Part shown: positions 32,834 to 54,541 of the stretch, in pieces
How the letters are laid out: each line of letters begins with the position of its first letter
Numbering within the stretch: position 1 is the first letter of the stretch
NCBI GenBank assembly: GCA_003225495.1
Contig: QIAJ01000007.1
Span: 22,167-86,166 of the forward strand
DNA from: Acidobacteriota bacterium
GTDB lineage: Bacteria > Acidobacteriota > Terriglobia > Terriglobales > Acidobacteriaceae
Reading direction: 5' to 3'
DNA length: 64,000 nucleotides
Notes under the pieces: model-generated
Databases searched by the model: none
Seen by the model: the letters and a program-made list of their open reading frames with translations, nothing else
Told to the model about the DNA's origin: nothing
Program-made: the position numbers and the translations under genes

Positions 32834-33191
32834 TAACACTTCTCCTGATTAGGTTGGTTCTTGCCACTACGAACTGCTCGATGGGCGAACGAACGGGCCG
32901 GGCAACCGTGGCTCGGACTGATCGGAGTCACAAATTGAAGAACCTCAGACGCCATTTGGAAGCAGTAACCGGAGGGTAATACCCTGTTTTACTGATGTCA
33001 AAACCCGTAAGGGCACTTTGGGCTGCTATTACGTAGCTATTACGTTGAACCGCAGTTATGTAGTGAACACGACGCGAATTCGGACAGTTACAGGAAGGTA
33101 TGTAGGTGAGCCTACTGAGGATCAGCCAACATGGAAGTCTCATTTTGCCATCTCAACGCCGCTTGAAGAGAGCAGGTCTTGAGGGATGTTG
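32834..33191. other. Divergent intergenic region
   Basis: About 360 bp between the lectin-like gene and the phosphoesterase. No gene is supported. It should contain both promoters. I looked for a riboswitch-like fold in 32880-32990 and found none that I could defend. Confidence 0.5.
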
Positions 33192-34730
33192 ATGAGTGAT
33201 GCGACTGTCGCCTTGCCTATGCGGAATGCCGGACTGAAAAAACTACTCCTTCCCATGCTGGGAATCCCATTAATGTTGTTGGCCGGATGCCGCGGCATAG
33301 GTACGGACCCGACGCAGCCACCACCACCGCCCCCGCCACCTGGTGATATTACACAGCTCAACCACATCATCATCCTGGCGCAAGAGAACCGCGGATTTGA
33401 ACACTACTTCGGGTCTCTGCGCCAATATTGGGCTGCCAATGGTTACCCGGACCAGTCCTTTGACGGTCTTCCGCAATTTAACCCTGCTTCCGGAGCGGCT
33501 CCGCTGCAGGGCCCGGCGCCCACCAATCCGGGATGCGATCCGGCATTTCCAGCGCCAGGCAATGACTGCACAATCAATGCCAATAGTCCGGCGGTCGAGT
33601 CGTTCAAGATGACTTCTATGTGTGAAGAGAATCCAAGTCCTTCGTGGAACGAGAGCCATGTGGATTGGAATCTCAAAGATCCCTTGTTCCCGACGGCGAC
33701 GCTGGACGGTTTCTTGTGGACGGCAGCCCACGACGCCAGGGCCAACGGTTTCTTTGATGTCGATGGCAAGCGGGCCATGAGCTACTACGACGGAAGCGAT
33801 CTTCCGTACTACTACTTCATGGCGTCGAATTTCGCGACTTCGGATCGCTGGTTCTCGCCGGTGATGTCTCGAACGCAGCCCAACCGGATGTTTATGCTGG
33901 CCGCTACTTCCGGCGGGCACGTGTATCCGCTCCGATCCGGAGATCCACCGCTAGCCGACCCGACCATTTTCGACTTGCTTCAGGCGGCGAATATTTCGTG
34001 GAAGGTATATGTTACAGACCTGACCGATGCCAAGAATCCGGTTCAGGATAGCGCCTTGAATTTCTTTGCCACTGCGGCAAAATATCCCGATCACATCGTC
34101 GGCGTCGATCAATACTTCGCCGACTTGACGGCGGGAACGCTCCCATCGGTGGGCTACATTGAGCCGGGCTACAACGGCGGACTCGACGAGCATCCGGGCG
34201 TGGATGACAACGTTCCGGGCGCGAATATCCAGGCCGGCGCAAAATATGTCTCCACTCTCATTAACGGGCTTATGCAGAGCTCGTCATGGAAGGATTCAGT
34301 CTTCATCCTGACATTCGACGAGTTTGGTGGGTTCTATGACCATGTGGCTCCGGTGCCGGCGGTGAGCCCGAATCCCAATGTCAAGCCGATTGATATCAAG
34401 CCCGGGCCGCCGCCAAATGGCCCAGACATTTGCGCTCCCCCAAACAATACCGATCCAAAATGCGATTTCCTTTATACCGGTTACCGCATTCCGTTGATCG
34501 TCGTTTCTCCATTTGCGAAAAAGAATTTTGTCTCGCACACTCCAGCGGACATGACGGCGTGGCTGAAGTTTGTGGAGACTCGATTCAAGCTTTCAAGCTT
34601 GACTCAACGGGACGCAGCGCAGATGGACATGACGGAATTCTTCGACTTCCCGAATCCACCGTGGATGACGCCGCCCACGCCACCCGAGCAGCAGACAACG
34701 GGCGCGTGCTATGTGAATCAGTTGCCTTAG
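33192..34730 (+). CDS. Phosphoesterase-family (PF04185) lipoprotein, phospholipase C/acid phosphatase-like
   Basis: 512 residues from ATG 33192 (GAGGG 6 nt upstream; ATG 33186 is in frame). Lipoprotein signal with lipobox MLLAGC, a run of eight Pro, then the alkaline-phosphatase-superfamily fold: NHIIILAQENRGFEHYFG (metal Glu-Asn), SPSWNESHVDWN, DHVAPVPAV (Asp-His metal site), SPFAKKNFVSHTPAD. It hydrolyses phosphodiester or phosphomonoester bonds, typically of phospholipids, outside the inner membrane. Its close paralogue is convergent at 34891. A terminator follows at 34778. Confidence 0.92.
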   Translation: MSDATVALPMRNAGLKKLLLPMLGIPLMLLAGCRGIGTDPTQPPPPPPPPGDITQLNHIIILAQENRGFEHYFGSLRQYWAANGYPDQSFDGLPQFNPASGAAPLQGPAPTNPGCDPAFPAPGNDCTINANSPAVESFKMTSMCEENPSPSWNESHVDWNLKDPLFPTATLDGFLWTAAHDARANGFFDVDGKRAMSYYDGSDLPYYYFMASNFATSDRWFSPVMSRTQPNRMFMLAATSGGHVYPLRSGDPPLADPTIFDLLQAANISWKVYVTDLTDAKNPVQDSALNFFATAAKYPDHIVGVDQYFADLTAGTLPSVGYIEPGYNGGLDEHPGVDDNVPGANIQAGAKYVSTLINGLMQSSSWKDSVFILTFDEFGGFYDHVAPVPAVSPNPNVKPIDIKPGPPPNGPDICAPPNNTDPKCDFLYTGYRIPLIVVSPFAKKNFVSHTPADMTAWLKFVETRFKLSSLTQRDAAQMDMTEFFDFPNPPWMTPPTPPEQQTTGACYVNQLP

Positions 34731-34890: not shown

Positions 34891-36402
34891 TCACGGCAAC
34901 TTATTCAGATAGCAAGGAGCATTCGTGCTCTGCACTGGCGGAGTTGGCGGGGTGACCCACGGAGGAGCGGTGAAGTTGAAGAACTCTGACATATCCATTT
35001 GGGCCGAATCCCGTTGGGTTAGCGACGACAGCCCAAAACGAGTTTCAATCAGCTTTAAGATCGCTGTGTAGTCGGCCGGCGTGTGTGAGACATAGTGTTT
35101 TTTCGCGAAGGGTGAGATCACGATCAGCGGAACCCGATAGCCGGTGTATTTGAAGTCGCATGTCGGCCCACTATCGTTCGGAGGTGTGCAAATATCGCCC
35201 TGAAACAGATCCTTAGGACGTATTCCGTCCGGGGAGACGGTTGCGGCTGGAGACAGATGATCGTAAAGTGCGCCACCTTCGTCATAGGTCAGAATGAATG
35301 CCGAATCCTTCCAGGAAGAACTCGCCATTATCGAGTTGATGATCGAAGCGACATAGGCTGCACCAAACTGCGTCCGGCTGGGCGCCAGATCGGAGTTGCT
35401 CGGGTGCTCGTCGAGTCCAGCGTTGCTGGCTGGTTCGATCTGGACGACCTGGGGCAGCGTTCGATTCTTCAGATCATTGTCGAAATCGGAGTTTGGAATC
35501 CCAATCGTCCCAATATTATTCGGAAAATTTGTGGGTATTGTTTGTCCCCACTGAAACTGCTTCACGTAACTGCTTTCCAGAAGGCATGAGGGCGCATATG
35601 GAGGCCCACTGCATCCGCTGTTGGTGGGATTGACGTAGATTTTCCAGGTGATGTTGGCGGCTTGCAGCTCTTGAAAAATTGTTGTGGCGGTGAGTGGTTG
35701 GCTGTCATGGCTGTTCGAGCCAATCGGGTACACATACCCCTGCGACGTCGCCCCGATCAGGTATTCACGATTCGGATGGGTACGAGTCATGACTGGGCTG
35801 AACCACCGGTCCGACGTCGCGAAGTTCGAAGCCATGAAGTAGTAGTAGTTCAAATCGCTGCCGTTGTAGTACCCCATTGCGCGGCGGCCGCGCTTGTCGT
35901 GATAGCCGATGATTCGTCCATCATGGGCGGCGGTATAAACAAAGCCGTTCAGTTGTGCTGGCAAGTTTCCGGTCGGATCATTGAGTCCCCAGTCAACATG
36001 AGATTCGTTCCAGGAAGGGCTGGTGTTCTCCGAGCACTGCGTCAGGAGTTTGAAGGATTTTATTTTGGGGCTCTGGCTGTCAATGGTGCAGTCATTAGGA
36101 GCAGGAAACGCGGGATCGCATCCGGGGTTGGTCGGGGCCGGATGATGCAGCGGCGGGATGCCAGTTTTCGGATTAAATTGCGGCAAGCCGTCAAACGACA
36201 CATCTGGATATGCGTTCTGCGCCCAGTACTGTCGAAGGGCTCCAAAGTAGTGATCGAAGGAACGGTTCTCCTGAACCATGAAGATGATGTGATTGATTTG
36301 CCCGAGTCCCTGCGATGCTGTCGGCGTTGAACTCTGTCCAGACGCAAGTAGCGCCATGGCGACAATCGAGCCGGTCAGAATAAGCGGAAGTTTCCCTTGC
36401 AT
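34891..36402 (-). CDS. Phosphoesterase-family (PF04185) secreted protein, paralogue
   Basis: 503 residues. A cleavable signal peptide (ILTGSIVAMALLASGQ, no lipobox Cys) precedes the same catalytic order as the gene at 33192: NHIIFMVQENRSFDHYFG, SPSWNESHVDWG, YDHLSPAATV, SPFAKKHYVSHTPAD, and FFNFTAPPWVTPPTPP. So one copy is membrane-tethered and this one is released. The two are convergent, 160 bp apart, and plainly duplicates. It follows a DUF5666 gene by 38 bp on the same strand. Confidence 0.92.
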   Translation of the reverse strand: MQGKLPLILTGSIVAMALLASGQSSTPTASQGLGQINHIIFMVQENRSFDHYFGALRQYWAQNAYPDVSFDGLPQFNPKTGIPPLHHPAPTNPGCDPAFPAPNDCTIDSQSPKIKSFKLLTQCSENTSPSWNESHVDWGLNDPTGNLPAQLNGFVYTAAHDGRIIGYHDKRGRRAMGYYNGSDLNYYYFMASNFATSDRWFSPVMTRTHPNREYLIGATSQGYVYPIGSNSHDSQPLTATTIFQELQAANITWKIYVNPTNSGCSGPPYAPSCLLESSYVKQFQWGQTIPTNFPNNIGTIGIPNSDFDNDLKNRTLPQVVQIEPASNAGLDEHPSNSDLAPSRTQFGAAYVASIINSIMASSSWKDSAFILTYDEGGALYDHLSPAATVSPDGIRPKDLFQGDICTPPNDSGPTCDFKYTGYRVPLIVISPFAKKHYVSHTPADYTAILKLIETRFGLSSLTQRDSAQMDMSEFFNFTAPPWVTPPTPPVQSTNAPCYLNKLP

Positions 36403-40119: not shown

Positions 40120-41523
40120 CTAGGTACCACTGCTCGATTCACGAACAGGCGCAATTTCATTCCGGGCGCCGGCACCCTCCGGCGCCAGTCTTTCCTCCAG
40201 TGAAGTGTTATCGCGAATTCCCCAATCGCCCAGCGCGTCCGGTGGCAGGCCATGGAGGGCAGACCGCAACGACCGACGGCGCCAGCGGTTGAGAAACCTG
40301 GAGCGGCTTGAAAAATCGAATGTCCGCTTACGCCTCTCCAGTTCGAACCACCGCAGATAGTGACGAACGACGTGCGGCATCGTCATTCGGATTGCCGCGG
40401 AATAATTCTGCTCAGCGGCCCAGCGCTGCGCCTCGGCAGAGTCCAGCAGCGCTATCAGTTGTGTGGCTAGATCTACTGGATCGCCAACTTTGTAAAAACT
40501 GATCGCCATACTTTCGTCGGCCGCCATATCGCGGAAATCGCCAATGTCCGCCGAAACTACTGGTACTCCATATTCACAGGCCTGATGCGCCGGACCGCTC
40601 GACCCAGTCGCCGAGTCATACGGAAGAACGACCACGCTGGTAGTTTTGAAAAGGTCAGGAACTTCTTCTTCCGCAACATAGCCTCGGAATTCAATTCGCT
40701 TGTTCGCGCCATATTTGTCGCGGATCGATTCCCAGTATCCCGGCTTGGTGTGGTGATTCGCTCCCGCGATCACCAGTTTTGCATTGGGCACCCGTTGCAA
40801 AACTGCAGGAAATGCCTCCATCAAAGTTTCCAGGCGTTTGTAAGTTCCCCAGTGGCCGATGGCGAGAACGCGTTGATCTGGGTTGCCCCGAAGAGAGAAG
40901 TCCGGGGGACTGGGACAAGCTGCAAAAGTACCGTGCGTTCCGAGCAGAACGTTCTGCGCCGCATATTTCGACATTAGAGTGCGCCGGTACCCCGAGAGCA
41001 GGACCGAAACGGAATTGGCTCGTAGCAAAGCGCGAGTCGCCATTTCGCTGCCCAGGCGGAAAATGCGCTCCTGCTTCATGCCTGCTCCGGCAAAATCAAC
41101 ATGCTCAAGAATGTGGTGCAGTGTGACATGCGTAAAGTAACCCATCGAGCGCGTAAGCGCCGGGATGCACAGTCCCGCAAATGCAGCGACCGGGTGTTCC
41201 TGGGTCGCGAAAGTCGAGTAAACGAGATTGAACCAGACCACATCCGGTTTCAGGCGGCGGACCGAGCGCGCGATGTTCATTGGTGCCGCCAAGCTGTTCG
41301 AGTCCCAGCATCGTTCGACGTGAAAGCCTTTCAGTTCCTGCTGCGCCTCCTGGCTCAGCGGTTTCCCATCTTTATCAGTTGCCCACTCGTAGTTGGTGAG
41401 TTTGTCACCGAGAATGGTGAGATTGACCAGCGGATTTCGCTGGAGTTCGCGCGCCAAATGAAATCCATATTCGTTCAACTGGCGGCCGCTGGGTGGGAAA
41501 GCTGTGACCAGACAAATCTTCAT
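40120..41523 (-). CDS. Family 4 glycosyltransferase of the exopolysaccharide locus
   Basis: 467 residues, GT-B fold. KICLVTAFPPSGRQLNEYGF opens the N-terminal domain; C-terminal donor domain has RVLAIGHWGTYKRLETLMEAF, GYVAEEEVPDLFKTTSVVVLP and SGPAHQACEYGVPVVSA. The last ~60 residues are basic and Arg-rich. It is downstream of the TPR/barrel gene on the same strand with a 36-bp gap, so probably co-transcribed. It would transfer a sugar to a lipid-linked intermediate on the cytoplasmic face. Confidence 0.9.
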   Translation of the reverse strand: MKICLVTAFPPSGRQLNEYGFHLARELQRNPLVNLTILGDKLTNYEWATDKDGKPLSQEAQQELKGFHVERCWDSNSLAAPMNIARSVRRLKPDVVWFNLVYSTFATQEHPVAAFAGLCIPALTRSMGYFTHVTLHHILEHVDFAGAGMKQERIFRLGSEMATRALLRANSVSVLLSGYRRTLMSKYAAQNVLLGTHGTFAACPSPPDFSLRGNPDQRVLAIGHWGTYKRLETLMEAFPAVLQRVPNAKLVIAGANHHTKPGYWESIRDKYGANKRIEFRGYVAEEEVPDLFKTTSVVVLPYDSATGSSGPAHQACEYGVPVVSADIGDFRDMAADESMAISFYKVGDPVDLATQLIALLDSAEAQRWAAEQNYSAAIRMTMPHVVRHYLRWFELERRKRTFDFSSRSRFLNRWRRRSLRSALHGLPPDALGDWGIRDNTSLEERLAPEGAGARNEIAPVRESSSGT

Positions 41524-41559: not shown

Positions 41560-44500
41560 CTAGAACAAGCTGATGCGAACAAACGGCCGGAACTGCTGAT
41601 TGTTTCCGCCGCTGAAATTGAAAAAGCTTTCCTGCTGCACCCCCGCCGAGAAACGTATCGGATAGCGCAAGGGAAGCGGCTGACCGTTTTCTTCAAAGGT
41701 GCGGCGGAATGGCATGGCGTATGAGACGCTGAACCCGCTCTCCACCGCGTCATAGAGGTGAAAACCCATATTGCGCGAGTACGCGACAGATGCTTCCACG
41801 GTCCAGTTTTTCTTGAACGAATACTCGACATTCGCCGCCGGACGAAACGCCTGCGCAATCGCAAACTGCTGGCCCTCAACGCGCCACGAGCGCAGATATT
41901 CGCCGATCGCGCGCAGCCGCAGGTTCTCAGAAAACTTCTCTTCGATCCCGCCATAAGTGGAGGTGTAGTAGAATTCGCGGATTACCGGGAAGAATTGCTC
42001 ATCCCGCGCTCCCCATCCCGTAACAAAAGCTGTCCTGCCCCACGGCCTCCCGACCCGGAATTCCAGCGCGGCGGCAAGGTCTCGAGAACGAAGATTGCTC
42101 TCGGTGAACGGGCCGGCTTCTCGAATTGCGTATCCCCTAACCGAAACCCAGTTGAAGAAGGAACTCGTCGACAAATAAATGAATTGCCGGAAGAGATTCT
42201 GGTTCATGTGCAGCGGGTCTTCCGAGTCTCTGCGCAGGGTCTTCTGCAGGCCGGCACTCAAGCTGAATACGTTGTCGCCCAGCCGGAACGTCGGGTTCAC
42301 CGCGAAATTAAACGAATAGTCGGTGGTGTCGCGATTGGTGATCGTGTTATCGCTGGGCAGCGAAATTACGCCACGGGCATTTCGAATCTGGAAGAATCCG
42401 CCCACATCGGGCATACCCTGCAAGTGCAGACGATATCCTGTGGTCCACTGCGTCTCGATCGACGAGCGTGGTGTCGGCAACAAACCCTGCGGTGCGCCGA
42501 TGAGCTGCGCGTCCAACGCATATACTGTCGTGTTTTCGAAGATCGGCGCCACCGAAAAATCCGAATGCATGCTAAGCGTGTGATTAATACGGATGCCTTC
42601 GTCGCCACCCGCACGGAGCAATTCGCGTTCCGCTGTCGGATCGTCACCGGCTGCCTGCGAAGCCAGGGCAAACGCCGAGAGCGCCTGCGCATTCTGGTGT
42701 TGTTGGCGATAGATGGCGGCCTTGGTCAGAAGAAACTGGTAACTGGCGTCAGAATCGTCCAGATGGCGGCTGATTGCATTGACCTGGCCTTCTGCGCGCG
42801 GCGTATCGCCCAGCGCCAGGTAGGTATTCGCGAGACCAAGCCGAACGCTGGTTTCGCTCGCTCCTCCTGCCAGCGCCCGCTGAAAATAAGTTTCGGCGAG
42901 TTCATATTCATGCATGGCGAGAAACAGGTCCGCCGCCTCCAGCAATTGCATGCCGGTCGGAGGAGGTGTACGCCCACCTGCCGATTCCATCAATGACAGA
43001 GTGATCTGCCGGCGCGCGTCATCGGTATCGCCTTTCTTCATCATGAGCTGTGCGACTGCCAATCGCACGCTGGTGCGGTCGCTGTCGGGAGCCGTAAGAG
43101 CTCGCTCGAAGCGCTCCATCGCAGCGGTCTGCTCGCCAAGCAGCGTCAAGGCTTCGCCCGTGGAAAGATAAATCGTGCTCGGCCCCAGCTTCTCCGCCTG
43201 AGCGATGTACTCCATGCTCTTTTCGCGGTCGCCCAACTGAGCGTAAGCCCGCGCCAGCTGCGCATAGACAGCACTGTTATTCGGCGCCAATTTGTCCGAC
43301 GCCTGAAGCTCGTCAATCGCTTCATGGAACTCATGCAAGTCGTACAACGTATTGGCCAGCGCCAGGTGCAGCGCCGCGTCGTTGGGAGCGCTCTTCAATG
43401 CAATGCGGTATTCCGACGCCGACTGTTTCAGCATCCCTTCGTCGCCATAGGCGGTGCCCCGGATCAAATGCAGCGCCATTGAATCGCCCAGTTCTTTCTC
43501 GGCGAGCTTCGCCTGCTGTAACGCAATCTGTGGACGATGCAAGTCCAGATTGGCATAAGCGAGTCCGAGATGGGCCTCGCCATTCTTCGGTTCGATGCGA
43601 AGAGCTGCCTCAAAGTCCGCAGCCGCTTCCGCGCCTTTGCGGAGATCGTGCAACACAAACCCACGATTCACATACGCGGTCGCTATCTTGGGATCGCGCT
43701 CGAGTGAACGAGTAAAAGCCGCCTGTGCCTGCTCCAGATCTCGATTGTGTTTGTGCACATATCCAGCCAACAAAGGGAGCGTCGGCTCCTTGAGCAGAAT
43801 CTCTTCATATTTCGTAGTCAGCTGCAACAGTTCGTCGTACTTCTCGAGGTGAAGCAAGTCGTATCCGTAATAGACCACGACGTCGCGATCGCGAGGCAGT
43901 TTCTGAATCGCAACCTGCGCGACTTCGGCAGACTCCTGATATTTGCCGGTCCACATCAGATAGCGTTCTTTTTCCCGCATTACTTGCGGATCCTGCTGCA
44001 TCTGTGGATTGGCGCGGCTCAACCACTGCGCTGCGAGAGGGAATTGCTTGCCTTCGATTCCGGCATTCATGCCGCCGGCAATAATCAGGCTATTGGTGGG
44101 GGCAAATTCATAAGCCTTCCGATATTCGGCCTCGGCCTTCGCAAAATCTCGGCGCGAAGTGTACATGTCGCCCAGAGCCAGATAGGGAACATAGAGCCGC
44201 GGGTAAGCAGCCTTTAGTCTTTGAAAATATTTCTCCGCTTCGCGATCTTGACCCAGGACACGCGACACCGATCCGAGAGACGTTAGTGCCTGGCGGTTCA
44301 CGGGATCGATAACCAGGATTTTTTTGTAGACGCGGACTGCATCGTCCCCGCGCCCCATTTTGGCCAGCACGTCTCCGCTCAGTTGCAACGCATTTGGATC
44401 CTTGGCGTTCAGATCTAACGCGGCGTTGACATCCTTCAAGGCGCCTTCCGAGTCGCCTGCGGCCAGTTTGATCATCGCGCGAAGCCGCAGAAAATCCTCT

Positions 44501-45738
44501 TGCCCATGACCGCGCACATTGAGGGTCGCAATCTGCGATTGCGCGATTCCCAACTGGCTCTTGGCCGCCGCGTCGTCGTGCAGGCGCTCATAGAGTTCCA
44601 TCAGGTTCATGTGAAGCTGGATCGGATATAGCATGCCTTCGGGCGGTGACTGTGGCAGATTGCTAAGAGCGGCGTTGTATTCCTGAACCGCATCTTGATT
44701 TCGCTCTTCCATGCGCGCCACTTCACCCTGAATCGCGTGCAGACGGTAGTTCTGCGCGTCCAATCCGGCGGCGCGTTTGAGAAATCCTTTAGCTGCTTCC
44801 GTGGACCCGGCGCCAAGCTGCGCCTGCGCGGCAGACAACTGCAGGTTCAAGTCCTGCGGCGCAGCCTCCGCCGCCTCGGAATAAAGCTTCGCCGCCTCTT
44901 CCGGCTTGCCGGACAGTTGATACGTGTAAGCTAACTCCGCTTTCACATCAGGTCCTGGACTCCGAATTCCTTTGAGAGCAGTGATAGCGGCGGAATAGTT
45001 TCCCGTTTCCCGATAGAACCCTGCCAGCGATCTGAGCACTTCCGGATTGTTCGGCGAACGCTTCTTGGCAATCTCCAGATAATGCTTCGCATCATCGAAC
45101 TTCTTCATTCGTTGATACGTCAAGGCCAGCAGTAGTTCCGAGCGTGCCGCTGGTTGTAGCCGTTCTGCGCGATCCAATGGGGCGATAGCCTGATCATATT
45201 GCCCCGTTTGCAGAAAGATTTCGCCGAGCAGCAGCAGATCATTGGTCCGCTTCGGATCGGCCGCCAGCACACGATTCAAGATCGCCTCGGCTTCATCCTT
45301 CCGTCCCATCGCGCTGTAAGTCTGTGCCAGTCCTGACATGCCTTCGAGCGACGACGGATTCGTCCGCAACCCGTGGTTGTAAGCATCCACCGCAAGTTGC
45401 GATTTGCCCGCGAGCCGCGCTGCATAGCCCAGGAGAAACCAGAGCTGAGCGTCGTTCGGTGCCGACTCCGCAGCGCGCTGCGCGAAGTCAACCGCCGCGG
45501 CGTAGTTGTGACTCTTCAGCGCATTTTCCGCAGCGCGCGCCAATCGCGCGTTCTGAATATTGGATCCCCAACCCAATTCCTTCTGAGACGATTCTGATTG
45601 CTGACGCTTTTGGGCAGGCGTCTGCGGCCGCGCCGTTTCCGTCTGCGGTTGCGTCGATCCCGAATTTATTTTGTACGTTTGGTCTTGCCCAGTTGCAGTT
45701 GTCACCGCGAGGGCAGCCAAAACAAACCAATATTTCAT
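41560..45738 (-). CDS. TPR-rich outer-membrane protein, BcsC/PgaA/PelB-like exporter
   Basis: About 1392 residues from ATG 45738 (TTG 45759 is an alternative). Signal peptide (WFVLAALAVTTATG), then roughly 25-30 TPR units over ~1000 residues (for example WFLLGYAARLAGKSQLAVDA, YNHGL; AYVNRGFVLHDLRKGAEAAA). The last ~340 residues are an amphipathic beta-strand region (YRLHLQGMPDVGGFFQIRNA, WTVEASVAYSRNMGF) ending in FRPFVRISLF, with a terminal Phe typical of outer-membrane barrels. This is the layout of exopolysaccharide export porins. It diverges from the membrane-protein operon at 45921. Confidence 0.88.
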   Translation of the reverse strand: MKYWFVLAALAVTTATGQDQTYKINSGSTQPQTETARPQTPAQKRQQSESSQKELGWGSNIQNARLARAAENALKSHNYAAAVDFAQRAAESAPNDAQLWFLLGYAARLAGKSQLAVDAYNHGLRTNPSSLEGMSGLAQTYSAMGRKDEAEAILNRVLAADPKRTNDLLLLGEIFLQTGQYDQAIAPLDRAERLQPAARSELLLALTYQRMKKFDDAKHYLEIAKKRSPNNPEVLRSLAGFYRETGNYSAAITALKGIRSPGPDVKAELAYTYQLSGKPEEAAKLYSEAAEAAPQDLNLQLSAAQAQLGAGSTEAAKGFLKRAAGLDAQNYRLHAIQGEVARMEERNQDAVQEYNAALSNLPQSPPEGMLYPIQLHMNLMELYERLHDDAAAKSQLGIAQSQIATLNVRGHGQEDFLRLRAMIKLAAGDSEGALKDVNAALDLNAKDPNALQLSGDVLAKMGRGDDAVRVYKKILVIDPVNRQALTSLGSVSRVLGQDREAEKYFQRLKAAYPRLYVPYLALGDMYTSRRDFAKAEAEYRKAYEFAPTNSLIIAGGMNAGIEGKQFPLAAQWLSRANPQMQQDPQVMREKERYLMWTGKYQESAEVAQVAIQKLPRDRDVVVYYGYDLLHLEKYDELLQLTTKYEEILLKEPTLPLLAGYVHKHNRDLEQAQAAFTRSLERDPKIATAYVNRGFVLHDLRKGAEAAADFEAALRIEPKNGEAHLGLAYANLDLHRPQIALQQAKLAEKELGDSMALHLIRGTAYGDEGMLKQSASEYRIALKSAPNDAALHLALANTLYDLHEFHEAIDELQASDKLAPNNSAVYAQLARAYAQLGDREKSMEYIAQAEKLGPSTIYLSTGEALTLLGEQTAAMERFERALTAPDSDRTSVRLAVAQLMMKKGDTDDARRQITLSLMESAGGRTPPPTGMQLLEAADLFLAMHEYELAETYFQRALAGGASETSVRLGLANTYLALGDTPRAEGQVNAISRHLDDSDASYQFLLTKAAIYRQQHQNAQALSAFALASQAAGDDPTAERELLRAGGDEGIRINHTLSMHSDFSVAPIFENTTVYALDAQLIGAPQGLLPTPRSSIETQWTTGYRLHLQGMPDVGGFFQIRNARGVISLPSDNTITNRDTTDYSFNFAVNPTFRLGDNVFSLSAGLQKTLRRDSEDPLHMNQNLFRQFIYLSTSSFFNWVSVRGYAIREAGPFTESNLRSRDLAAALEFRVGRPWGRTAFVTGWGARDEQFFPVIREFYYTSTYGGIEEKFSENLRLRAIGEYLRSWRVEGQQFAIAQAFRPAANVEYSFKKNWTVEASVAYSRNMGFHLYDAVESGFSVSYAMPFRRTFEENGQPLPLRYPIRFSAGVQQESFFNFSGGNNQQFRPFVRISLF

Positions 45739-45920
45739 GTGGTGAATCCGGGAGCTCAAGGCGCCTCCGCCGAACTGACTGGATTGCGCTTACTTCGATT
45801 CGTAAGTGGGTCTGTGCGTTGGCTGACCTACTTCTGTTCCACACAACTGGTTCGCTCGGTAGGATTCCAAGCAACCGCCTGCCCGCCGGGATAATCCAAG
45901 GTCCCGACCGGAGGATCTCT
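45739..45920. promoter_or_regulatory. Divergent promoter region of the exopolysaccharide locus
   Basis: 182 bp between the TPR/barrel gene and the GTG-initiated operon. No clear -35/-10 pair was assigned, but both transcripts must start here. Confidence 0.45.
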
Positions 45921-47711
45921 GTGCAAAGGCTTGGCTTCATGGAACGTGGAGCACCACCTATTCCGCTTGGCCTGATCTTTTTAGGGGCCTTCCTCATTCA
46001 TGCGCCGCTGCTGCTCATGAAACTTCCGCTGAAGTCCTACGACACAAACTTTCACATCTTCTTCGCGTCGCATTACTCGCACCACTGGTTTGATCCGTGG
46101 AACGCGAAATGGTACGCCGGCTTTTCGCAGACAACCTATCCGCCTCTTCCCCAGCAGTGGGTAGCGATCGTTTCCCGTCTGATTGGGCTGGACATGGCCT
46201 ATATGCTGGTTCAGTTCGCCGCCATTGTGCTTTTGACGCTGGGCGTGTACCGCTTTTCGAAGTTGTGGGTGGGAGCGCGGGCCGCCGGCTACGCTGCTCT
46301 GGCGAGCATTCTTCTCGGATCGGAAGCATTCCTGGTTTATTCGGCCGGACAACTGTCAACCACCTTCGCCGCGCCCCTTTACCTAAACTCGCTTCCGTAT
46401 CTCTATGAATGGATGCGCTGGCGCAACTGGCGTTCCTTGCTGAAAGGATCCGCGCTCGCGGTCGCGGCCGCGGCGGCTCACCACGCCACGCTTCTCTTCG
46501 GATCGTTTCTGTTCGCGATTCCAATTGTTGCGCTCGCGATCATCGATGTCCGCGAAAGCCGCCTAGCCCATGTGGGCAGCTTCATCATTCGTACGATCTT
46601 CGTGACCGCGCTCGTGGGCACCATGATCGCTGTGGTGCTGTTGCCATTCTGGATCGCGCTCATCAATTACCCGGTTACCCAGGTTCCCATTCCCCATCCG
46701 AGCCGCTCGAATTACATCTTGAATCCGCAGTGGGGAGTGAACTTTTTTCTCGTTCCTTACGGTGCGATGATCCTCGCCCTGCCGTTTATTTTCATGCGGG
46801 GGTCGTCGAGCCCTCGACTTCGCCCTCTACTCCTGGGCTTCTGGGTTGCATTCCTTCTAGGACTGGGCGGAACCACTCCGGTCGCAAGGATGCTTCTAGG
46901 CCGCGCGTTCGAAGTGCTCACCATGGAGCGCTTTGCCTACTGGGCAACTTTGCTAGCGTTGCCCTTTATCGGATTGCTGGCAGAGGAACTCATCGATCGC
47001 TACAAGTGGCGAGCGGTCGCGGGATTGACGCTAGCCGCCGGAATGACCTGCGCTGTGGCAGTTTCCTGGGCGAGCTTCCGTCCAGCCGACGCCGAAGATT
47101 TCAAAGTAGAGTCCGTAGCCGGATGGCTCAATCGCGACGGTCACGATAGATACCGGTACGTCACTCTGGGCTTCGGCAATAAGATTGCGCGCCTGGCGGT
47201 ACTCACGAACGCGAGTAGTGTCGATGGCGAATGGAACTCGGGCCGCATGCTGCCCGAACTGACTGAACACGGCGCTGGCGCTCTCACCAGTTCCAAGTAT
47301 TTCGGCAAAAACGGTCTCGACGCCCTGAGTGCAATTCTTCAACACGCCGACCGCTATGGATTGAAATGGGTTTTCATGAAGGATCCGTACTACGAGCCTT
47401 TGCTCGTTTTCTCGGGCTGGCGAAAAGTGGATGACCTCGAGAACCGGACGATCACAGTCTGGAGCAAAGAGGCGGTACCGCCCGCCACGCCGATCGACTC
47501 GCCGCAGCGCCCGCTGGCGTGGGAAGGCGTGTTATGGGGCATTCTGCCGATCGGGAGCAGTATTCTCGCGATGTTGCTGGTGCTCATCCCCGATCGCCGC
47601 TGGGCGGGCCAGACCGTTGTTAGCGATTCCGACAAAGCCGCGACCATGCCGAGCGCTGGCAGTGAATCATCGCCTGCCAACGATGATCTGGTTCTTGGGA
47701 GGATCTCTTGA
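45921..47711 (+). CDS. Polytopic membrane protein, GT-C / PTPS-related type
   Basis: 596 residues from GTG 45921 (GGAGGATCTCT immediately upstream; the frame is open far upstream to 45324 but overlaps the divergent gene). About 11 membrane helices. The first loop HAPLLLMKLPLKSYDTNFHI with YDTNFH, and HWFDPWNAKWYAGFSQTTYPP, are GT-C-like features with conserved acidic residue near the first loop. A soluble C-terminal part includes KWVFMKDPYYEPLLVF. Probable polyprenyl-linked sugar transferase or polymerase. It starts an operon of five genes; the next overlaps by 4 bp. Confidence 0.82.
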   Translation: MQRLGFMERGAPPIPLGLIFLGAFLIHAPLLLMKLPLKSYDTNFHIFFASHYSHHWFDPWNAKWYAGFSQTTYPPLPQQWVAIVSRLIGLDMAYMLVQFAAIVLLTLGVYRFSKLWVGARAAGYAALASILLGSEAFLVYSAGQLSTTFAAPLYLNSLPYLYEWMRWRNWRSLLKGSALAVAAAAAHHATLLFGSFLFAIPIVALAIIDVRESRLAHVGSFIIRTIFVTALVGTMIAVVLLPFWIALINYPVTQVPIPHPSRSNYILNPQWGVNFFLVPYGAMILALPFIFMRGSSSPRLRPLLLGFWVAFLLGLGGTTPVARMLLGRAFEVLTMERFAYWATLLALPFIGLLAEELIDRYKWRAVAGLTLAAGMTCAVAVSWASFRPADAEDFKVESVAGWLNRDGHDRYRYVTLGFGNKIARLAVLTNASSVDGEWNSGRMLPELTEHGAGALTSSKYFGKNGLDALSAILQHADRYGLKWVFMKDPYYEPLLVFSGWRKVDDLENRTITVWSKEAVPPATPIDSPQRPLAWEGVLWGILPIGSSILAMLLVLIPDRRWAGQTVVSDSDKAATMPSAGSESSPANDDLVLGRIS

Positions 47712-48838
47712 CTGGCAGCCGGCTGCTCGGAATCATTCTCATCATTGCCACGGTCGTACTGGTGGTGATGGGCACCATTCACCCGAATCAGTCCGGCGCA
47801 ATGATTGCTGACTCTCGCGCCCGATTGATAGGCTCCGCCTCGTCGCCTCAGGACGCGGTCAACAACCTGATGCAGCAGATTGGCCGTCGCACCTGGGAGG
47901 CTGCTTACGCCAGCCTTGCTAATAAAGGCGAGTTCACGGAGACCGAATTTGTTCGCGATTTGAACGGCAACTACGGCAGTCTTCGCAGCTACGCAAACCT
48001 CGACGGCTTCGATTCTCAACCCCTTCGCGCTTCGGGAGACGAAGCCCAAGTGCGCGCCCGGATGCGATGGGCGTCAGTAGTTGGGATCTTCGAAGACTCG
48101 CGCGACCTGCGCGTCGTTCGAAATGGAAGCCAATGGGAAGTCGCTTGGCCAATTGTTAGGGAAGCGAAGGTGCCACCGCAGGTAATTCCCGTGAACTACT
48201 TGCGCTGGGACGTTGTCTACCGGGGAGCCGAGGACGACTGGGGCGCCCAGGACGTTGAGGCGCCCCATGTTCGAATCATTGCCATGCATCCGGTCGACCG
48301 CGGCGGCGGAGTGGTGATCCTGGGAGAGGTTCTCAATGAAGATGTCGTTCCCGCTTTCGTGACCGTCAAGGCTAGTCTGCTTGGCAGCAACGGATCCACC
48401 CTCGCGACCGAAGACAGCTTCGACAAGATCTCCCACATTCTTCTGCCGAAGCAAGTTTCTCCGTTCCGCATCGATTTTCGGAACGTGAGGCTTTCCCAGG
48501 TGGATAGCGTGCGCATCCAGCCTTCCGCGAATCTGGTTGCGGCTTCTGCCGACCCAGTAATCGGAATCGAAGGACAGAAACTTACTCCGCTGCCGGATTC
48601 TTCTTTAACCGGGTCGCTCGTCAATCAGAGCGGACAAGTCGTGAACGTGGCTCACGTCATCGGCACTTTCTACGACAACAAAGGACAGATCGTCTGGGTT
48701 GCCGACCAGTATCCCAGCCGGGCATTGCTGCCACAAACGCCGGTTCCGTTCACGATTTCACTCCCGGCAGATGTTTCCAACAAAGTTGGAAGCTATCGAG
48801 TAGTCGCAAGCACCTATAGTTCGAGTCGTTTTCAATGA
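47708..48838 (+). CDS. Membrane-anchored periplasmic protein of the export operon
   Basis: 376 residues, TTG 47708 overlapping the previous stop (GGGAGGATCTC upstream). One N-terminal helix (LLGIILIIATVVLVVMG), then an NTF2-like segment (AVNNLMQQIGRRTWEAAY, WEVAWPIVRE) and C-terminal beta-rich part (GVVILGEVLNEDVVPAFVTVKA, NVAHVIGTFYDNKGQIVWVA) resembling FxLYD-type sandwiches. No named family. Coupled translation with its neighbours argues for a role in the same export machine. Confidence 0.8.
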   Translation: MTGSRLLGIILIIATVVLVVMGTIHPNQSGAMIADSRARLIGSASSPQDAVNNLMQQIGRRTWEAAYASLANKGEFTETEFVRDLNGNYGSLRSYANLDGFDSQPLRASGDEAQVRARMRWASVVGIFEDSRDLRVVRNGSQWEVAWPIVREAKVPPQVIPVNYLRWDVVYRGAEDDWGAQDVEAPHVRIIAMHPVDRGGGVVILGEVLNEDVVPAFVTVKASLLGSNGSTLATEDSFDKISHILLPKQVSPFRIDFRNVRLSQVDSVRIQPSANLVAASADPVIGIEGQKLTPLPDSSLTGSLVNQSGQVVNVAHVIGTFYDNKGQIVWVADQYPSRALLPQTPVPFTISLPADVSNKVGSYRVVASTYSSSRFQ

Positions 48839-49734
48839 GAAGCTGGGTCACACTTCTGTGCGCATTGATTGTTGTCGTGACTGTGCCCGGTCTGGCGGGC
48901 CACGCCTCGGCGCAGGCGTCAGATCTGCGCTTTCCTCAGAAAGTGGAAGCCGGAACAGCGTTCTCTGTGTCCACCACCGGCTCTGGCAGCGCTACGCTGT
49001 ACATCATTGGCCCCGGAGACACGATTCGCCGCGTGGTGCATCTGGGTGAAAGCATCTCCTTCGGTCCTGATGATCTGCACAACGCCGGGCACTACGTGGC
49101 GTTTCTGGTGAGTGGATCATCGACCCAGAATGCGCAGTTTGAAGTGACCGCCTCCCATCAAGCTGCAACCCTAAGTTTTCTGGCGAAGCCCTCCCGCTTA
49201 CCCGTGAATCTTCCCAATGGAGTGAGCGGTGTCGCCTACGTGTTCGACATTTTCCGCAATCTCATCTTGCAGCCGCAGCAGATATCTTTCGAGCTCTCCG
49301 ATTCCTCCGGTCGCGCTCAAATCCGTTCCGCCACCAGCCGCGATGGAGTGGCGTGGGTGAAGATGAACTCCGCCGCCAAGGCAGGTCCTGCCCAGTTTCA
49401 GGCGGAGGTCGCCAGCGTTCGCAACAAGAGGGTGATTCAGCAGGTACCCGGCGATCCGTGTTCAATCAGGATGACCGCTCACGGATTGGGCCAAAAAGAT
49501 AAAGCAAGAGTCGCTCTCGAGACGGAGCCTGTGCGCGATTGCAACGGCAATCCGGTGCCCGACGGCACAATCGTCACCTTCACGGAGACTTACCAGGGCG
49601 GTCAATCCATGGTGGACGTACCGCTGAAGCGCGGAGTAGCGAAGACCGAGCTGCCTTCTCACAACGGTGCGGTTATTTCCGTCGCTTCGGGCGTCGTGAT
49701 GGGCAATGAAATTCGCTGGAGCGGCGGATTATGA
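48835..49734 (+). CDS. Secreted Ig-like protein of the export operon
   Basis: 299 residues, ATG overlapping the previous stop (ATGA). Signal peptide (LCALIVVVTVPGLAGHASAQ), then three Ig-like beta-sandwich regions (FPQKVEAGTAFSVSTTGSG, FELSDSSGRAQIRSATSRD, VPDGTIVTFTETYQGGQ). The middle unit resembles bacterial Ig-like invasin domains. Function unknown; conserved context suggests a surface or periplasmic partner for polysaccharide export. Confidence 0.78.
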   Translation: MRSWVTLLCALIVVVTVPGLAGHASAQASDLRFPQKVEAGTAFSVSTTGSGSATLYIIGPGDTIRRVVHLGESISFGPDDLHNAGHYVAFLVSGSSTQNAQFEVTASHQAATLSFLAKPSRLPVNLPNGVSGVAYVFDIFRNLILQPQQISFELSDSSGRAQIRSATSRDGVAWVKMNSAAKAGPAQFQAEVASVRNKRVIQQVPGDPCSIRMTAHGLGQKDKARVALETEPVRDCNGNPVPDGTIVTFTETYQGGQSMVDVPLKRGVAKTELPSHNGAVISVASGVVMGNEIRWSGGL

Positions 49735-50243
49735 CTCCGACCTCCGTAGCTCGCAAAACACTTCTGGCCGCGGTCCCACTTCTCGCCGCTCTATTCCTGT
49801 CCGCTGCAGGGCAGCCGACTGTACACGTCGCTCCGATGGATTCGGTTGGCCCGCGCCCGGTTGAGCAGCAAACTCGATCCTCGATCGTCCGCGATTACCT
49901 GCAAGCATGGCAGAGCATGGGCACTGCTCTGGGCGAGAATCGCCCCGACCTGCTCGATGCTTCGTTCGTAGGCCTTGCAAAAGACAAATTAGCGGACACG
50001 ATTCGCGAGCAACGAAGCCTCGGAATTGCAAGCAGCTATCGCGATCAGTCTCACGATCTCCAGGTCGTCTTCTACTCTCCCGAAGGACTCTCGATTCAAC
50101 TCCTCGATACCGTCGAATACGACGTTGAAGTCCGCGACCACGGAAAGACCGTGGGTACGCAGCATGTCCGCACACGCTACGTTGCTGTCCTTACTCCCAC
50201 GGAGTCCCGATGGAAAGTGCGTGTCTTCCAAAGCGGAAGCTGA
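49731..50243 (+). CDS. Small exported protein of the export operon
   Basis: 170 residues, ATG overlapping the previous stop. Signal peptide (KTLLAAVPLLAALFLSAAGQ), then an NTF2-like alpha/beta domain (IVRDYLQAWQSMGTALGE, YDVEVRDHGKTVGTQ, RWKVRVFQSGS). No enzyme motif. Fourth member of the coupled set; the GT2 gene starts 90 bp later. Confidence 0.78.
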   Translation: MTPTSVARKTLLAAVPLLAALFLSAAGQPTVHVAPMDSVGPRPVEQQTRSSIVRDYLQAWQSMGTALGENRPDLLDASFVGLAKDKLADTIREQRSLGIASSYRDQSHDLQVVFYSPEGLSIQLLDTVEYDVEVRDHGKTVGTQHVRTRYVAVLTPTESRWKVRVFQSGS

Positions 50244-50333: not shown

Positions 50334-51329
50334 ATGATCTCAGTAGTGATTCCAATCTACAACGAAGAAGAAATCATCTCGTTACTTCATCGCGCACTGT
50401 CCGATGCCATGGACAAGGTGGACGACAACTGGGAAGTCGTATACGTTAATGACGGTTCGGACGATTCCTCTCTTGACCTGCTGCGGCAATTGCAGTCGGA
50501 CGATTCTCACGTCGTGGTAGTCGATCTGTCGCGCAACTGGGGACACATGGGAGCGCTGCACGCCGGTCTGCAAACGGCCCGCGGCGACGCAATCGTTCTC
50601 ATGGATGGGGACCTGCAGGATCCGCCTGACATTGTGCCCAAGATGGTTGCAGCCTGGCGCGGCGGCGCGCAGGTGGTCACCGCGGTGCGCAGAAGTCGCC
50701 AGGAGAGCCGTAAAGCGCTGGCTATGCTCTTCCCGCTGTTTTACAAGATTCTGGGAGCGATCTCGGACTATCCGATTCCTCTCAACGCCGGAATTTTCGG
50801 GCTAATCGATCGTCAGGCTCTGGACTCCATCAACTCCTTACGCGAAGGTAACCGCTATCTGCCTGGCCTCCGAGCTTGGGTTGGATACCGGACCGCCGTC
50901 GTGTACTACGACCGCCAGGATCGCGTCGGTGGCGAAGGCAAGCTAAGCTTCATCAGCCGCATCAAGTATGCGATGGATGCGATCACCAGCTTCAGCTACA
51001 AGCCTCTCCGCCTGAGTTTCGTTCTTGCGGGCATCGCAGTCTTCATCGCCGCAGTTATGGGAGTTCTCGGATTACTCTCCGACTCCAATGCGATGGAGTA
51101 CGGCCTCTTCGCCGCCATTTTCTTCATGACCAGCCTGCCGCTCTTCTGTGTTGGGATTCTCGGGGAATATCTGGGTCGCGTTTATGACGAAGTCAGGCAG
51201 CGGCCTCTCTCGATAATCAATCGCGTGTATCGCACCGACCAGATGTTTACCACGCAGCAGTTGGATTCGGAAAAGATGCGCGCTGCGATGCACGACACCG
51301 TGCTCGATAAACTTTTTCCAGCTGCCTGA
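50334..51329 (+). CDS. Family 2 glycosyltransferase, polyprenyl-phosphate type
   Basis: 331 residues. GT-A core: VVIPIYNEEEIISLL, YVNDGSDDSSLDLL, MDGDLQDPPDIV (DxD region). Two C-terminal membrane helices (FVLAGIAVFIAAVMGVLGLL and LFAAIFFMTSLPLFCVGILG) give the GtrB/ArnC/DPM layout, i.e. transfer of a hexose from a nucleotide sugar to undecaprenyl phosphate. GGGAGCTTCGA precedes ATG. It ends the operon and is convergent with the GH99-like gene. Confidence 0.93.
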   Translation: MISVVIPIYNEEEIISLLHRALSDAMDKVDDNWEVVYVNDGSDDSSLDLLRQLQSDDSHVVVVDLSRNWGHMGALHAGLQTARGDAIVLMDGDLQDPPDIVPKMVAAWRGGAQVVTAVRRSRQESRKALAMLFPLFYKILGAISDYPIPLNAGIFGLIDRQALDSINSLREGNRYLPGLRAWVGYRTAVVYYDRQDRVGGEGKLSFISRIKYAMDAITSFSYKPLRLSFVLAGIAVFIAAVMGVLGLLSDSNAMEYGLFAAIFFMTSLPLFCVGILGEYLGRVYDEVRQRPLSIINRVYRTDQMFTTQQLDSEKMRAAMHDTVLDKLFPAA

Positions 51330-51351: not shown

Positions 51352-52326
51352 TCAGCGTCCAGAAGACCCTGCGGCGGGCTTGCATTTTTCCAGACCGCGT
51401 TCAATGGCAGTGCTCTCTTCGTAGTCATTCCAGGTTGCAATCAGGAGGAAGGGAAGGGGATTGTTCGCGGGATAGTAGTCACGACGCAGCTTCATAGTGT
51501 CCTGAAACGTCTCTCCGCAGCGCTGCGACATGTAGCGGTTCAGGCTCCACGAAGCCTTTCGATCATCGAAGCCAGGCCAGGCGGCACCCACCGCAATTTT
51601 GTCAGGATACTTGCTCTGCATCGTCTGATAAAAGTAGCGCAGGTAGTCTTCGCCCCAGTTGCTTCCATCCGGAGACCAGCCTTTTTTGCCTGGATTGATC
51701 CACGCATAGAAGCCGTCAAATGATTTCTCGGACGGTCCCGGAGAAAATTCATGAATCAACAGCGGCGGTGGATTCCACGAGTTCGTCTGCTCCCGCACTC
51801 GATTCCAATCCGTGTGGCCGCCCTTTGGAAATATGAAGATCACGGGCCGCCCGCGATACTCGAGATAAGCCTTCCGGCCGCGGGAATCGACCGCGAGATA
51901 TTTCTGATGAAATGTTTCGAAAGCCGAGAGGGCGTCATCGGTCGACTGATCGGGGCTTTGATTCGATTCATCAAACATCATGGCTACACTGAAATTCTGT
52001 TCGGCCGCAATTGATTGGATTAGGGCATAGCTTTTGTCCAGAAAAGGCTCTCGATCTCCGTACCAGTCGATGACAAATCCCGTAATACCCAGGTTTTTGG
52101 CAGCCGCAATCTGCTTCTTGATGACCACTGGATCCTGCGAGGAGTAACCGACGTCGATGTGCCGGGGGTGCCCAAACCACGGCTCGTAGACGGCAAGGAC
52201 CTTCGTCGGCGTAGTATTGGCCTCTGAATTCTGGTGCAGAGAGCGGTGCAGGCTGTTCTGGGAGCAGCCCTGATGGAAAAACAGCAATATCAGGGCAGCG
52301 AAGCTGAATCGGTAGTCATTTGCCAT
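51352..52326 (-). CDS. GH99-like/DUF lipoprotein hydrolase
   Basis: 324 residues. A lipoprotein signal (LILLFFHQGCS; Cys acylated), then a TIM-barrel pattern: VLAVYEPWFGHPRHIDVGY, ITGFVIDWYGDREPF, VAMMFDESNQ, VGAAWPGFDDRKASW and LIATWNDYEESTAIE. The last block, WNDYEEST, fits the active-site Glu region of GH99/GH71-type glycosidases. It may trim or degrade the local exopolysaccharide. No adjacent same-strand gene. Exact specificity unknown. Confidence 0.82.
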   Translation of the reverse strand: MANDYRFSFAALILLFFHQGCSQNSLHRSLHQNSEANTTPTKVLAVYEPWFGHPRHIDVGYSSQDPVVIKKQIAAAKNLGITGFVIDWYGDREPFLDKSYALIQSIAAEQNFSVAMMFDESNQSPDQSTDDALSAFETFHQKYLAVDSRGRKAYLEYRGRPVIFIFPKGGHTDWNRVREQTNSWNPPPLLIHEFSPGPSEKSFDGFYAWINPGKKGWSPDGSNWGEDYLRYFYQTMQSKYPDKIAVGAAWPGFDDRKASWSLNRYMSQRCGETFQDTMKLRRDYYPANNPLPFLLIATWNDYEESTAIERGLEKCKPAAGSSGR

Positions 52327-52522: not shown

Positions 52523-54541
52523 GTGCCACAGAGTACAACGCCACAACTCGAAGCAGTAGCCTCGACGCCCACCCATCGAGTCCTCAGCGGCAGTGCCATT
52601 ATGCTGACCGGCTTGGGCCTCGTGACCCTGATCAATTTTGGCTACAACATTGCCGTCGCGCGATTCCTTGGCCCGACCGCTTTCGGCCACACTACCGCTG
52701 TCTACACGCTGCTCATTCTCATCTCCTCGGTCACACTGTCGTTTCAGATTCTCACCGCGAAGATGGTGGCGCAGCAAGCATCTCCCCAGGCGCAAGCTAC
52801 CGTCTATAAGGCATTTCATTGGCGAGGGTGGATTGCCGGCGCTGTAGTCGCTTTGCTGCTTCTTGTCTTTCGGCACGCAGTCACCGACTATCTCAATCTT
52901 CCGGATACGCTTCTGATCGAACTGCTGGCAATCGGAACGGCGTTTTACGTTCCGCTCGGAGCGCGCCGAGGCTATATCCAGGGAGTCTGCCGTTTCCGAC
53001 ATCTAGCTTCCAATCTGGTTCTCGAAGGCGTTGTCCGGTTCGTGGGATCTTTGGCGCTCATCGTGGCGGGTGCCGGCGTGAAAGGCGTAATTGCCGCCAA
53101 TGCGGCCGCTGTGGTGGGGGCTTATTTCCTGGCGCGGCCGAAGCTTATGACTTCGTCGAAGGATGCGCCCGAGGTGCCCATCGCTTTTCGGGAGGGGTTG
53201 CAAGCGGCGGTATTCTTCGCTGGACAAGTGGTCATTAACAACTGCGACATCGTGGTAGTGAAACATTTCTTCCCGTCAGAGTCGGCCGGAATTTATGCTG
53301 CGGTCGCCATGGTCGGACGGGTCGTGTTTGCTTTCTCCTGGGCGGTGGTCAGCAGCATGTTTCCGATAGTTGCTGAAACGAGCAGCCGGAAACAACGTGA
53401 AGACTACGGCGTTCTGGGGACCTCTCTGCTGTTGGTCATGGCCATCTGTCTGCTGTTCGTCGTGACCCTCTCACTCGCCCCGGGTCAACTATGGACATGG
53501 CTCTTTGGTAGCCAGTTCGCAACTGCCCATGGCATAGCTTTCTCCAACCTGTTGACGCTCTATGCAGTTTCAACCGGAATTTACGCCCTGAGCGTCGTTA
53601 TCATCGCGTACGAAATGTCGCGCAAGATCGCCAATACTGGATGGTTCCAGCTGCTGATCAGCGGCGTCGTAATTGCCGGAATCTACTTCTTCCACTCGTC
53701 ACTGGCGCAAGTGATCTGGGTTCAAGTGATCACGATGATTTTCCTGCTTCTCTGCGTGGCGATTCCATTCTTGGTCTCGTGGGCGAAGCGGCACCACGAC
53801 GCCGAACGTTTCACGTTCCCTGGCTTCGTCCGTCTTCGCCGCCGTGTCTCGGAAGACGAAGTCATTGCGGAATTTCTGAAAAGCGATTTCCAGTGTCCGG
53901 AGTTTGAAGACTATCAGGAAGCTACGGGCCGCATTGTGACTTCCCCGGCTCTGCAAGATGCCGACGAGAACAAAGTCCGTCGAGCTCTCCTGTTCATTCG
54001 CCACGGATCTCTCTGGAGAGAACTTCCCCGTGGAACACAATGGTTCGAAGCTGAAATTGGACTTGATGACCTTCAACGGATTCGAGTATTTCCGCGCGCC
54101 CACTGGCGGAAGCTCGCTGTTGGTGATTTCAGCATCACGCAGGTCGCTGAGAGAATTACAGATGAGCGTTTTCGAAACCGCACTCCGGAAGCATTTCGCG
54201 CGAAAATTCACGATCTACGGGCACAACTTCAGTTGGACGACAGTCCCATCGCTGGTGCTGTCCTTCTAATCGGGATCGACGAAACCGGGCCTTTCACAAT
54301 CCTGGACGGTAATCATCGGCTATTAGCCGCTATGCTGGCAACGCCGGAAGCCGTGGATCGCCTCACATTCTATTGTGGTTTATCTCCGAGGATGGCGCAA
54401 TGCTGCTGGTATCAGACGAACGTCCTCACCTTGGCTCGCTACGCACGCAACTTGGTCCGCCATTTCATACACGATCCGGACAGAGAGCTGGTCCGGCTTT
54501 TGCACCATACGGACAGTCAACGCCAAAACATGGTGGCATAG
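52523..54541 (+). CDS. Wzx-like oligosaccharide flippase fused to a ParB-like domain
   Basis: 672 residues, GTG 52523 (GGAG ~10 nt upstream). Residues 1-425 are a 12-14-helix MATE/polysaccharide-transporter protein (LTGLGLVTLINFGYNIAVAR, FLGPTAFGHTT, VVVKHFFPSESAGIYAAVAM). From residue ~430 (base 53810) a soluble segment of ~243 residues follows in the same frame, with FRAKIHDLRAQLQLDD and PFTILDGNHRLLAAML; DGNHR is the signature of ParB/sulfiredoxin-like nucleotide-binding folds. The flippase should move a lipid-linked oligosaccharide outward. The fused domain's role is unknown; a cytoplasmic kinase-like or nucleotidase control is speculation. Confidence 0.85.
   Translation: MPQSTTPQLEAVASTPTHRVLSGSAIMLTGLGLVTLINFGYNIAVARFLGPTAFGHTTAVYTLLILISSVTLSFQILTAKMVAQQASPQAQATVYKAFHWRGWIAGAVVALLLLVFRHAVTDYLNLPDTLLIELLAIGTAFYVPLGARRGYIQGVCRFRHLASNLVLEGVVRFVGSLALIVAGAGVKGVIAANAAAVVGAYFLARPKLMTSSKDAPEVPIAFREGLQAAVFFAGQVVINNCDIVVVKHFFPSESAGIYAAVAMVGRVVFAFSWAVVSSMFPIVAETSSRKQREDYGVLGTSLLLVMAICLLFVVTLSLAPGQLWTWLFGSQFATAHGIAFSNLLTLYAVSTGIYALSVVIIAYEMSRKIANTGWFQLLISGVVIAGIYFFHSSLAQVIWVQVITMIFLLLCVAIPFLVSWAKRHHDAERFTFPGFVRLRRRVSEDEVIAEFLKSDFQCPEFEDYQEATGRIVTSPALQDADENKVRRALLFIRHGSLWRELPRGTQWFEAEIGLDDLQRIRVFPRAHWRKLAVGDFSITQVAERITDERFRNRTPEAFRAKIHDLRAQLQLDDSPIAGAVLLIGIDETGPFTILDGNHRLLAAMLATPEAVDRLTFYCGLSPRMAQCCWYQTNVLTLARYARNLVRHFIHDPDRELVRLLHHTDSQRQNMVA

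Follow-up and report, generated by a model that had tools for sequence, protein, structure and literature searches.

A Wzx-type flippase of Acidobacteriota in obligate pairing with a soluble domain of likely ParB/sulfiredoxin-like fold

How bacteria match the flipping of lipid-linked sugars to the supply of their precursors is, to our knowledge, poorly understood, and we know of no cytosolic sensor in Wzx-type flippases. One gene in the window (the whole stretch of 64,000 nt analysed here) raises the question of whether a flippase might carry such a module in its own polypeptide. At 52523-54541 on the plus strand, a single open frame of 672 aa, with a GTG start at 52523 and a stop codon at 54539-54541, runs through a polytopic flippase into a soluble domain. 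Its parts are:

52523-53797, plus strand: Wzx/MOP-type polysaccharide flippase part, residues 1-425, with 12 predicted helices and N and C termini predicted to be cytoplasmic (PF01943, hydropathy, positive-inside count)
53804-54538, plus strand: C-terminal soluble domain, residues 428-672 (around 245 residues), of likely ParB/Srx-like fold (AF2, Foldseek, alignments)
54305-54319, plus strand: DGNHR motif, residues 595-599, whose GxxR corresponds to the P motif (Box II) of ParB (sequence)

An earlier note, made from the letters of the DNA, had described one frame encoding a flippase of around 425 residues followed by a soluble domain with DGNHR at residues 595-599, and this architecture is confirmed as first stated. 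The flippase part belongs to the known Wzx/MOP family: PF01943 (Polysacc_synt) covers residues 22-286 with 34.0 bits against a cut-off of 28.2, and the protein is a predicted translocator of lipid-linked glycan. It has no sequence relative in the PDB. Simple hydropathy gives 12 helices, the last ending at around residue 418, and a similarly simple positive-inside count finds positive charge in alternate loops and just past the last helix. Both termini should therefore be cytoplasmic, and the C-terminal domain is predicted to lie on the cytoplasmic side of the membrane.

The same fusion, sought in related genomes, is present there. The domain is encoded in 52 of 200 relatives, with all matches confined to the window's own family of soil Acidobacteria, and from these relatives we extracted 41 distinct loci in which it is fused in frame to the same flippase; a search of the phylum yielded two further fused copies, one of them in a single-contig genome (G427). 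Members of the fusion with names are Candidatus Sulfotelmatobacter and another Acidobacteriota MAG. A contig scan with exact 8-residue patterns of one sequence returned two loci only, both from Acidobacteriota, and such a scan gives no measure of other phyla. In plasmid, phage and viral collections we found no flippase-linked copy, and the resemblance of a viral locus (L076) to the domain is limited to the GNHR segment.

A split form also occurs. In 13 intact loci a separate gene for the domain follows that of the flippase, with an exact 4-base overlap (ATGA in 12 loci and GTGA in 1) that places the start of the domain inside the stop codon of the flippase. Together, the 41 in-frame fusions and the 13 pairs coupled through ATGA or GTGA argue for matched translation of the two parts. 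The split loci make up a single supported branch of the domain tree (99/95), and the difference between fused and split requires a single change. When 120 relatives were sampled, the flippase was found in 30 and the domain in the same 30, neither occurring alone; these genomes share ancestry and are not independent events, and the pairing had no exception among them. The flippase and the domain are thus in fixed, obligate 1:1 pairing, usually fused.

These loci also bear on the objection that the earlier note had raised against itself, that a sequencing or assembly error joined two neighbouring genes. Such an error would fit the relatives in which the two parts are separate, overlapping genes, but it is contradicted by the 41 distinct fused loci and the two additional ones, including that in the single-contig genome, and by the restriction of the split form to one supported branch. 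We reject it as the source of the fusion; the chance that it is nevertheless correct seems to us vanishingly small.

We then consider the fold of the domain. A single-sequence AlphaFold model was unusable (pLDDT 36), and the AF2 model from a 58-sequence alignment was taken instead (pLDDT 93.6, pTM 0.88). Compared with the PDB by Foldseek, this model gave sulfiredoxin or Noc, a ParB relative, at all of ranks 1-11 (best E 0.96, probability 0.60), several of these entries being chains of one complex and not independent. In a viral library (best E 0.064), many top matches carried the name ParB, ParB/sulfiredoxin or DNA-sulfur modification; counts by superfamily are based on these entry names. No single match was significant in either library, and TM-scores normalised on the query were only 0.1-0.3. 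The domain consists of an N-terminal helical extension, a ParB/Srx-like core at around residues 506-620 and a C-terminal segment with CWYxTN and two helices, the last of these being specific to the flippase-linked form in our alignments. Within the core, a strand is followed by a loop with PR, a helix, a strand, a strand-GxxR-helix unit and a final strand, which is the ParB/Srx order.

Sequence comparison was less informative. The domain had no match in searches of Pfam, NCBIfam, PHROGs or PDB sequences, and a weak ParB-like PHROG match (E 0.043) was obtained for a distant relative (L073) only. None of 57 domain copies matched PF02195, and a single one of the 57 matched the DndB/DGQHR family profile, with an E of only 0.032, which does not make the domain a member of that family. 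When profiles were compared with eight ParB sequences, the same places came into register, as did the helix at 132-145 (domain numbering), and P was initially 0.018; the comparison was dropped because, under the settings of the control, 15 of 200 column shuffles reached an equal score.

The ParB-like character proposed in the earlier note is partly supported, by the fold matches, with sulfiredoxin and Noc at PDB ranks 1-11 and ParB/Srx names in the viral library, but not by any significant match or sequence profile; the model, when run in Foldseek, did not prove unrelated to ParB/Srx folds. We regard a ParB/Srx-like fold as likely, with good confidence although not as proven, and the domain as likely, again short of proof, to be a new branch of this fold. 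The opposite reading, in which the assignment is wrong, the alpha/beta fold of the domain is new, its GNHR turn arose by convergence and its role in export has nothing to do with nucleotides, can point to the lack of a significant structural or sequence match, to the low query-normalised TM-scores and to a ParB profile comparison no better than shuffles. That the first 11 PDB ranks and many viral top matches belong to one superfamily, and that the core elements follow the ParB/Srx order, argues against it, and we judge it quite improbable.

The DGNHR motif and its setting are compatible with this fold. The motif reads DGNHR in 29, EGNHR in 30 and EGHCR in 1 of the 60 loci that contain the site, a count that includes two loci fetched twice. 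G169 and R172 (domain numbering, used for all residues in this paragraph) are invariant in 57-58 aligned copies, and the residues kept also in distant relatives are E17, E19, F24, L25, R59, P75, W80, W101, G169, R172 and A175. A strand (164-168) and a helix (170-179) flank the GxxR turn in the AF2 model, as they do the P motif in Box II of ParB, which PMC12704722 defines as GxxR. Box III is not recognisable in it.

Some copies of the domain lack a flippase. Two genomes encode second copies with no adjoining flippase, in which a short hydrophobic stretch is followed by the domain (L051:6563-7561 and L057:6534-7580); in both genomes, this paralogue lies beside aroA. The two copies are near the fused copies L031 and L040 in the domain tree, and the linker LIVPA of L057 is also found in L031. 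This common linker and the tree position suggest that both copies probably derive from a fused protein whose first helices were lost.

More distant relatives, 20-24% identical and without a flippase, stand alone in L063, in L073, which is from an acidobacterial family other than the window's, and in Streptomycetaceae plasmids. The latter are plasmids of Streptantibioticus and Kitasatospora (L127 and L128), which place stand-alone relatives in Actinomycetota; together with L073 they represent a small protein family for which Pfam has no model. The L063 relative (6225-6845) carries EGHCR and is antisense between murD- and ftsW-like genes in a peptidoglycan cluster. The CWYxTN segment and two further helices of the flippase-linked form lie beyond the point at which the distant relatives end, and these helices may therefore be the flippase-specific part of the domain. 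The expectation that stand-alone homologues would occur near glycan genes was borne out for the split-gene lineage, but not for the distant relatives in L063, L073 and the Streptomycetaceae plasmids.

The flippase-domain gene is the end of a conserved cluster that occupies around 28.6-54.5 kb of the window (28621-54541). Its other main genes are:

28621-29700, plus strand: sugar nucleotidyltransferase/hexapeptide-type protein
29704-30102, plus strand: STAS-domain protein (PF01740, 51.9 bits)
30796-31533, plus strand: thymidylate-kinase-like (TMK-like) P-loop protein (PF02223, 42.5 bits), co-occurring with the flippase-domain protein
40120-41523, minus strand: GT4 glycosyltransferase
41560-45759, minus strand: 1399-aa TPR protein with a barrel-like C-terminal part ending in F, a candidate PgaA/BcsC/PrsT-like export porin and a conserved neighbour (40 loci)
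45924-47711, plus strand: polytopic membrane protein, family not recognised, a conserved neighbour (20 loci)
47708-48838, plus strand: conserved cluster protein with a DUF3426-like C terminus (below cut-off)
48835-49734, plus strand: conserved secreted cluster protein
49731-50243, plus strand: conserved small secreted cluster protein
50334-51329, plus strand: GT2 polyprenyl-phosphate-type glycosyltransferase, a conserved neighbour
51352-52326, minus strand: GH71/GH99-like secreted hydrolase, a conserved neighbour of the flippase gene (21 loci) and in most cases encoded on the opposite strand

The cluster also encodes a proline-rich secreted or anchored protein and TPR proteins. These gene families point to an exopolysaccharide, with a flippase step in its synthesis and export through the TPR-barrel porin, and from them we infer a cluster of the exopolysaccharide synthesis and export type. 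The cluster genes that were scanned include no parA. Two related secreted phosphoesterase-like proteins with the motif ENR[GS]F[ED]HYFG are encoded on opposite strands inside the cluster (33186-34730 and 34891-36402), and genes akin to this pair lie near the cluster in other genomes too.

The TMK-like and STAS genes are the distal part of the cluster and belong with the flippase-domain gene. The TMK-like gene is present in 31 of 120 relatives, among them every one of the 30 that have the flippase-domain protein; in the remaining genome (G067:C13:113346-113993), no flippase or domain was found, which may reflect an assembly gap or a reduced cluster. STAS homologues adjoin the flippase gene in other genomes. 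A phospho-switch serine of the STAS protein was considered as a target of the domain and rejected, as the DSxG serine is not kept in the STAS homologues of other clusters.

What the domain does for the flippase can be read in several ways. The reading that we put forward, tentatively and as plausible rather than probable, is that it is a cytosolic ligand-binding module that gates or couples the flippase. The flippase would move a lipid-linked oligosaccharide within the conserved acidobacterial exopolysaccharide synthesis and export cluster; the domain would use its strand-GxxR-helix turn to bind a ligand of the cytosol that contains phosphate, most likely a nucleotide or nucleotide sugar; and it would gate the flippase or couple it to precursor supply. 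The earlier note had suggested that the domain may couple flipping to a nucleotide or phosphorylation state. Ligand binding, the identity of the ligand and gating are steps that we infer only. They are consistent with the invariance of G169 and R172 in the turn and with the standing of the ParB fold as a documented CTP-, ATP- or GTP-binding module that is often reused in fusions (PMC12704722), although 17 of 28 purified ParB-fold proteins in the same survey bound no NTP, and the domain itself has no significant fold match, no sequence family and no recognisable Box III. The flippase-free copies L051 and L057, which keep the domain on a short membrane anchor, also count somewhat against a pure gate. 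It is more doubtful that the protein is a flippase with a built-in switch or kinase, a nucleotide-responsive module of ParB/Srx fold, such that the state of nucleotides in the cytosol would gate flipping and the co-conserved TMK-like and STAS proteins would feed or control it.

The same membrane-anchored copies would suit an enzyme better than a gate. The domain could be a SerK-like small-molecule kinase or a phosphatase that modifies, ahead of flipping or while it proceeds, the flippase substrate or a protein of the cluster, with a sugar, a lipid phosphate or a protein as possible target and the flippase merely as its membrane holder. The ParB/Srx fold does include SerK (PMC5120207) and sulfiredoxin, and the invariant polar residues E17, E19 and R59 lie outside the GxxR turn and are retained even in the stand-alone relatives of 20-24% identity; yet no SerK or Srx catalytic residue set was identified in the domain, the cysteine of GCHR is asparagine in 59 of the 60 loci with the site, and no metabolic context indicates a substrate, and we consider such an activity unlikely. 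Somewhat less likely still, the domain could be a scaffold without catalytic activity, on which the GT4, STAS and TMK-like proteins dock to the flippase, its fold inherited and its ligand binding lost. The obligate 1:1 pairing, the strong co-occurrence with the TMK-like gene (30 of the 31 genomes that have it), the STAS neighbours and the flippase-specific C-terminal helices missing from the stand-alone relatives would all agree with docking, for which the scaffold use of the fold in PadC offers a precedent (PMC12704722), but a pure scaffold would have no need of a putative phosphate-binding turn, GxxR, that is invariant across a very diverse set.

If the domain does bind a nucleotide or nucleotide sugar, it would provide a direct case of a ligand-controlled flippase, and membrane transport would be added to the uses of the ParB/Srx fold. 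Ordinary genetics and binding assays could test these proposals, given the obligate pairing, the lineage with split genes and the small number of invariant residues.

The protein can be compared with several known systems. With Wzx/MOP flippases it has in common 12 predicted helices, predicted cytoplasmic termini, a polysaccharide cluster setting and a Pfam match, above the cut-off yet low at 34 bits; it differs in carrying, or being obligately paired with, a 245-residue domain, predicted to be cytosolic, and in being without a sequence relative in the PDB. The domain resembles ParB and Noc (PF02195) in its top fold matches, which include Noc, in the strand-GxxR-helix turn of Box II and in the order of the core. 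Unlike these proteins, it has no PF02195 match, no DNA-binding part and no recognisable Box III, has three extra helices before the core and two after it, and is membrane-attached in a glycan cluster. A canonical ParB was rejected, with no ParB-type DNA-binding match in Pfam or NCBIfam and no parA among the scanned cluster genes. The best PDB fold matches are sulfiredoxins (6ky4, 3cyi and 1xw4), but the catalytic cysteine of GCHR is replaced (GNHR) in all but one of the loci with the site and there is no peroxiredoxin context, and sulfiredoxin activity was likewise rejected. The fold class also includes SerK, of which we take PDB 1vk1 to be a Pyrococcus relative. SerK itself, an archaeal ADP-dependent serine kinase that shows that the fold can be a kinase (PMC5120207), is a weak Foldseek match (rank 20), and the domain differs from it in having no serine-metabolism context; equivalents of its catalytic residues were not identified in the domain.

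The PgaA/BcsC and XrtA/PEP-CTERM PrsT export systems have a counterpart in the TPR protein of the cluster, which scores with the PgaA, BcsC and PrsT models, all below cut-off; the cluster differs from them in its Wzx-type flippase with a ParB/Srx-like domain and in its STAS and TMK-like proteins. Finally, a 2025 survey of the ParB-CTPase fold, based on PF02195, describes many fusions, with partners that include CBS, methyltransferase, DUF3850, HNH and sigma70 (PMC12704722). Flippases, polysaccharides and transmembrane partners go unmentioned in its main text, and the domain studied here would escape its PF02195 query. Judging from the open papers that we searched, the combination of a flippase with such a ParB/Srx-like domain seems not to have been described. 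The flippase protein and the fusions of that survey nonetheless have a principle in common, the reuse of a ParB-like fold by joining it to another domain.
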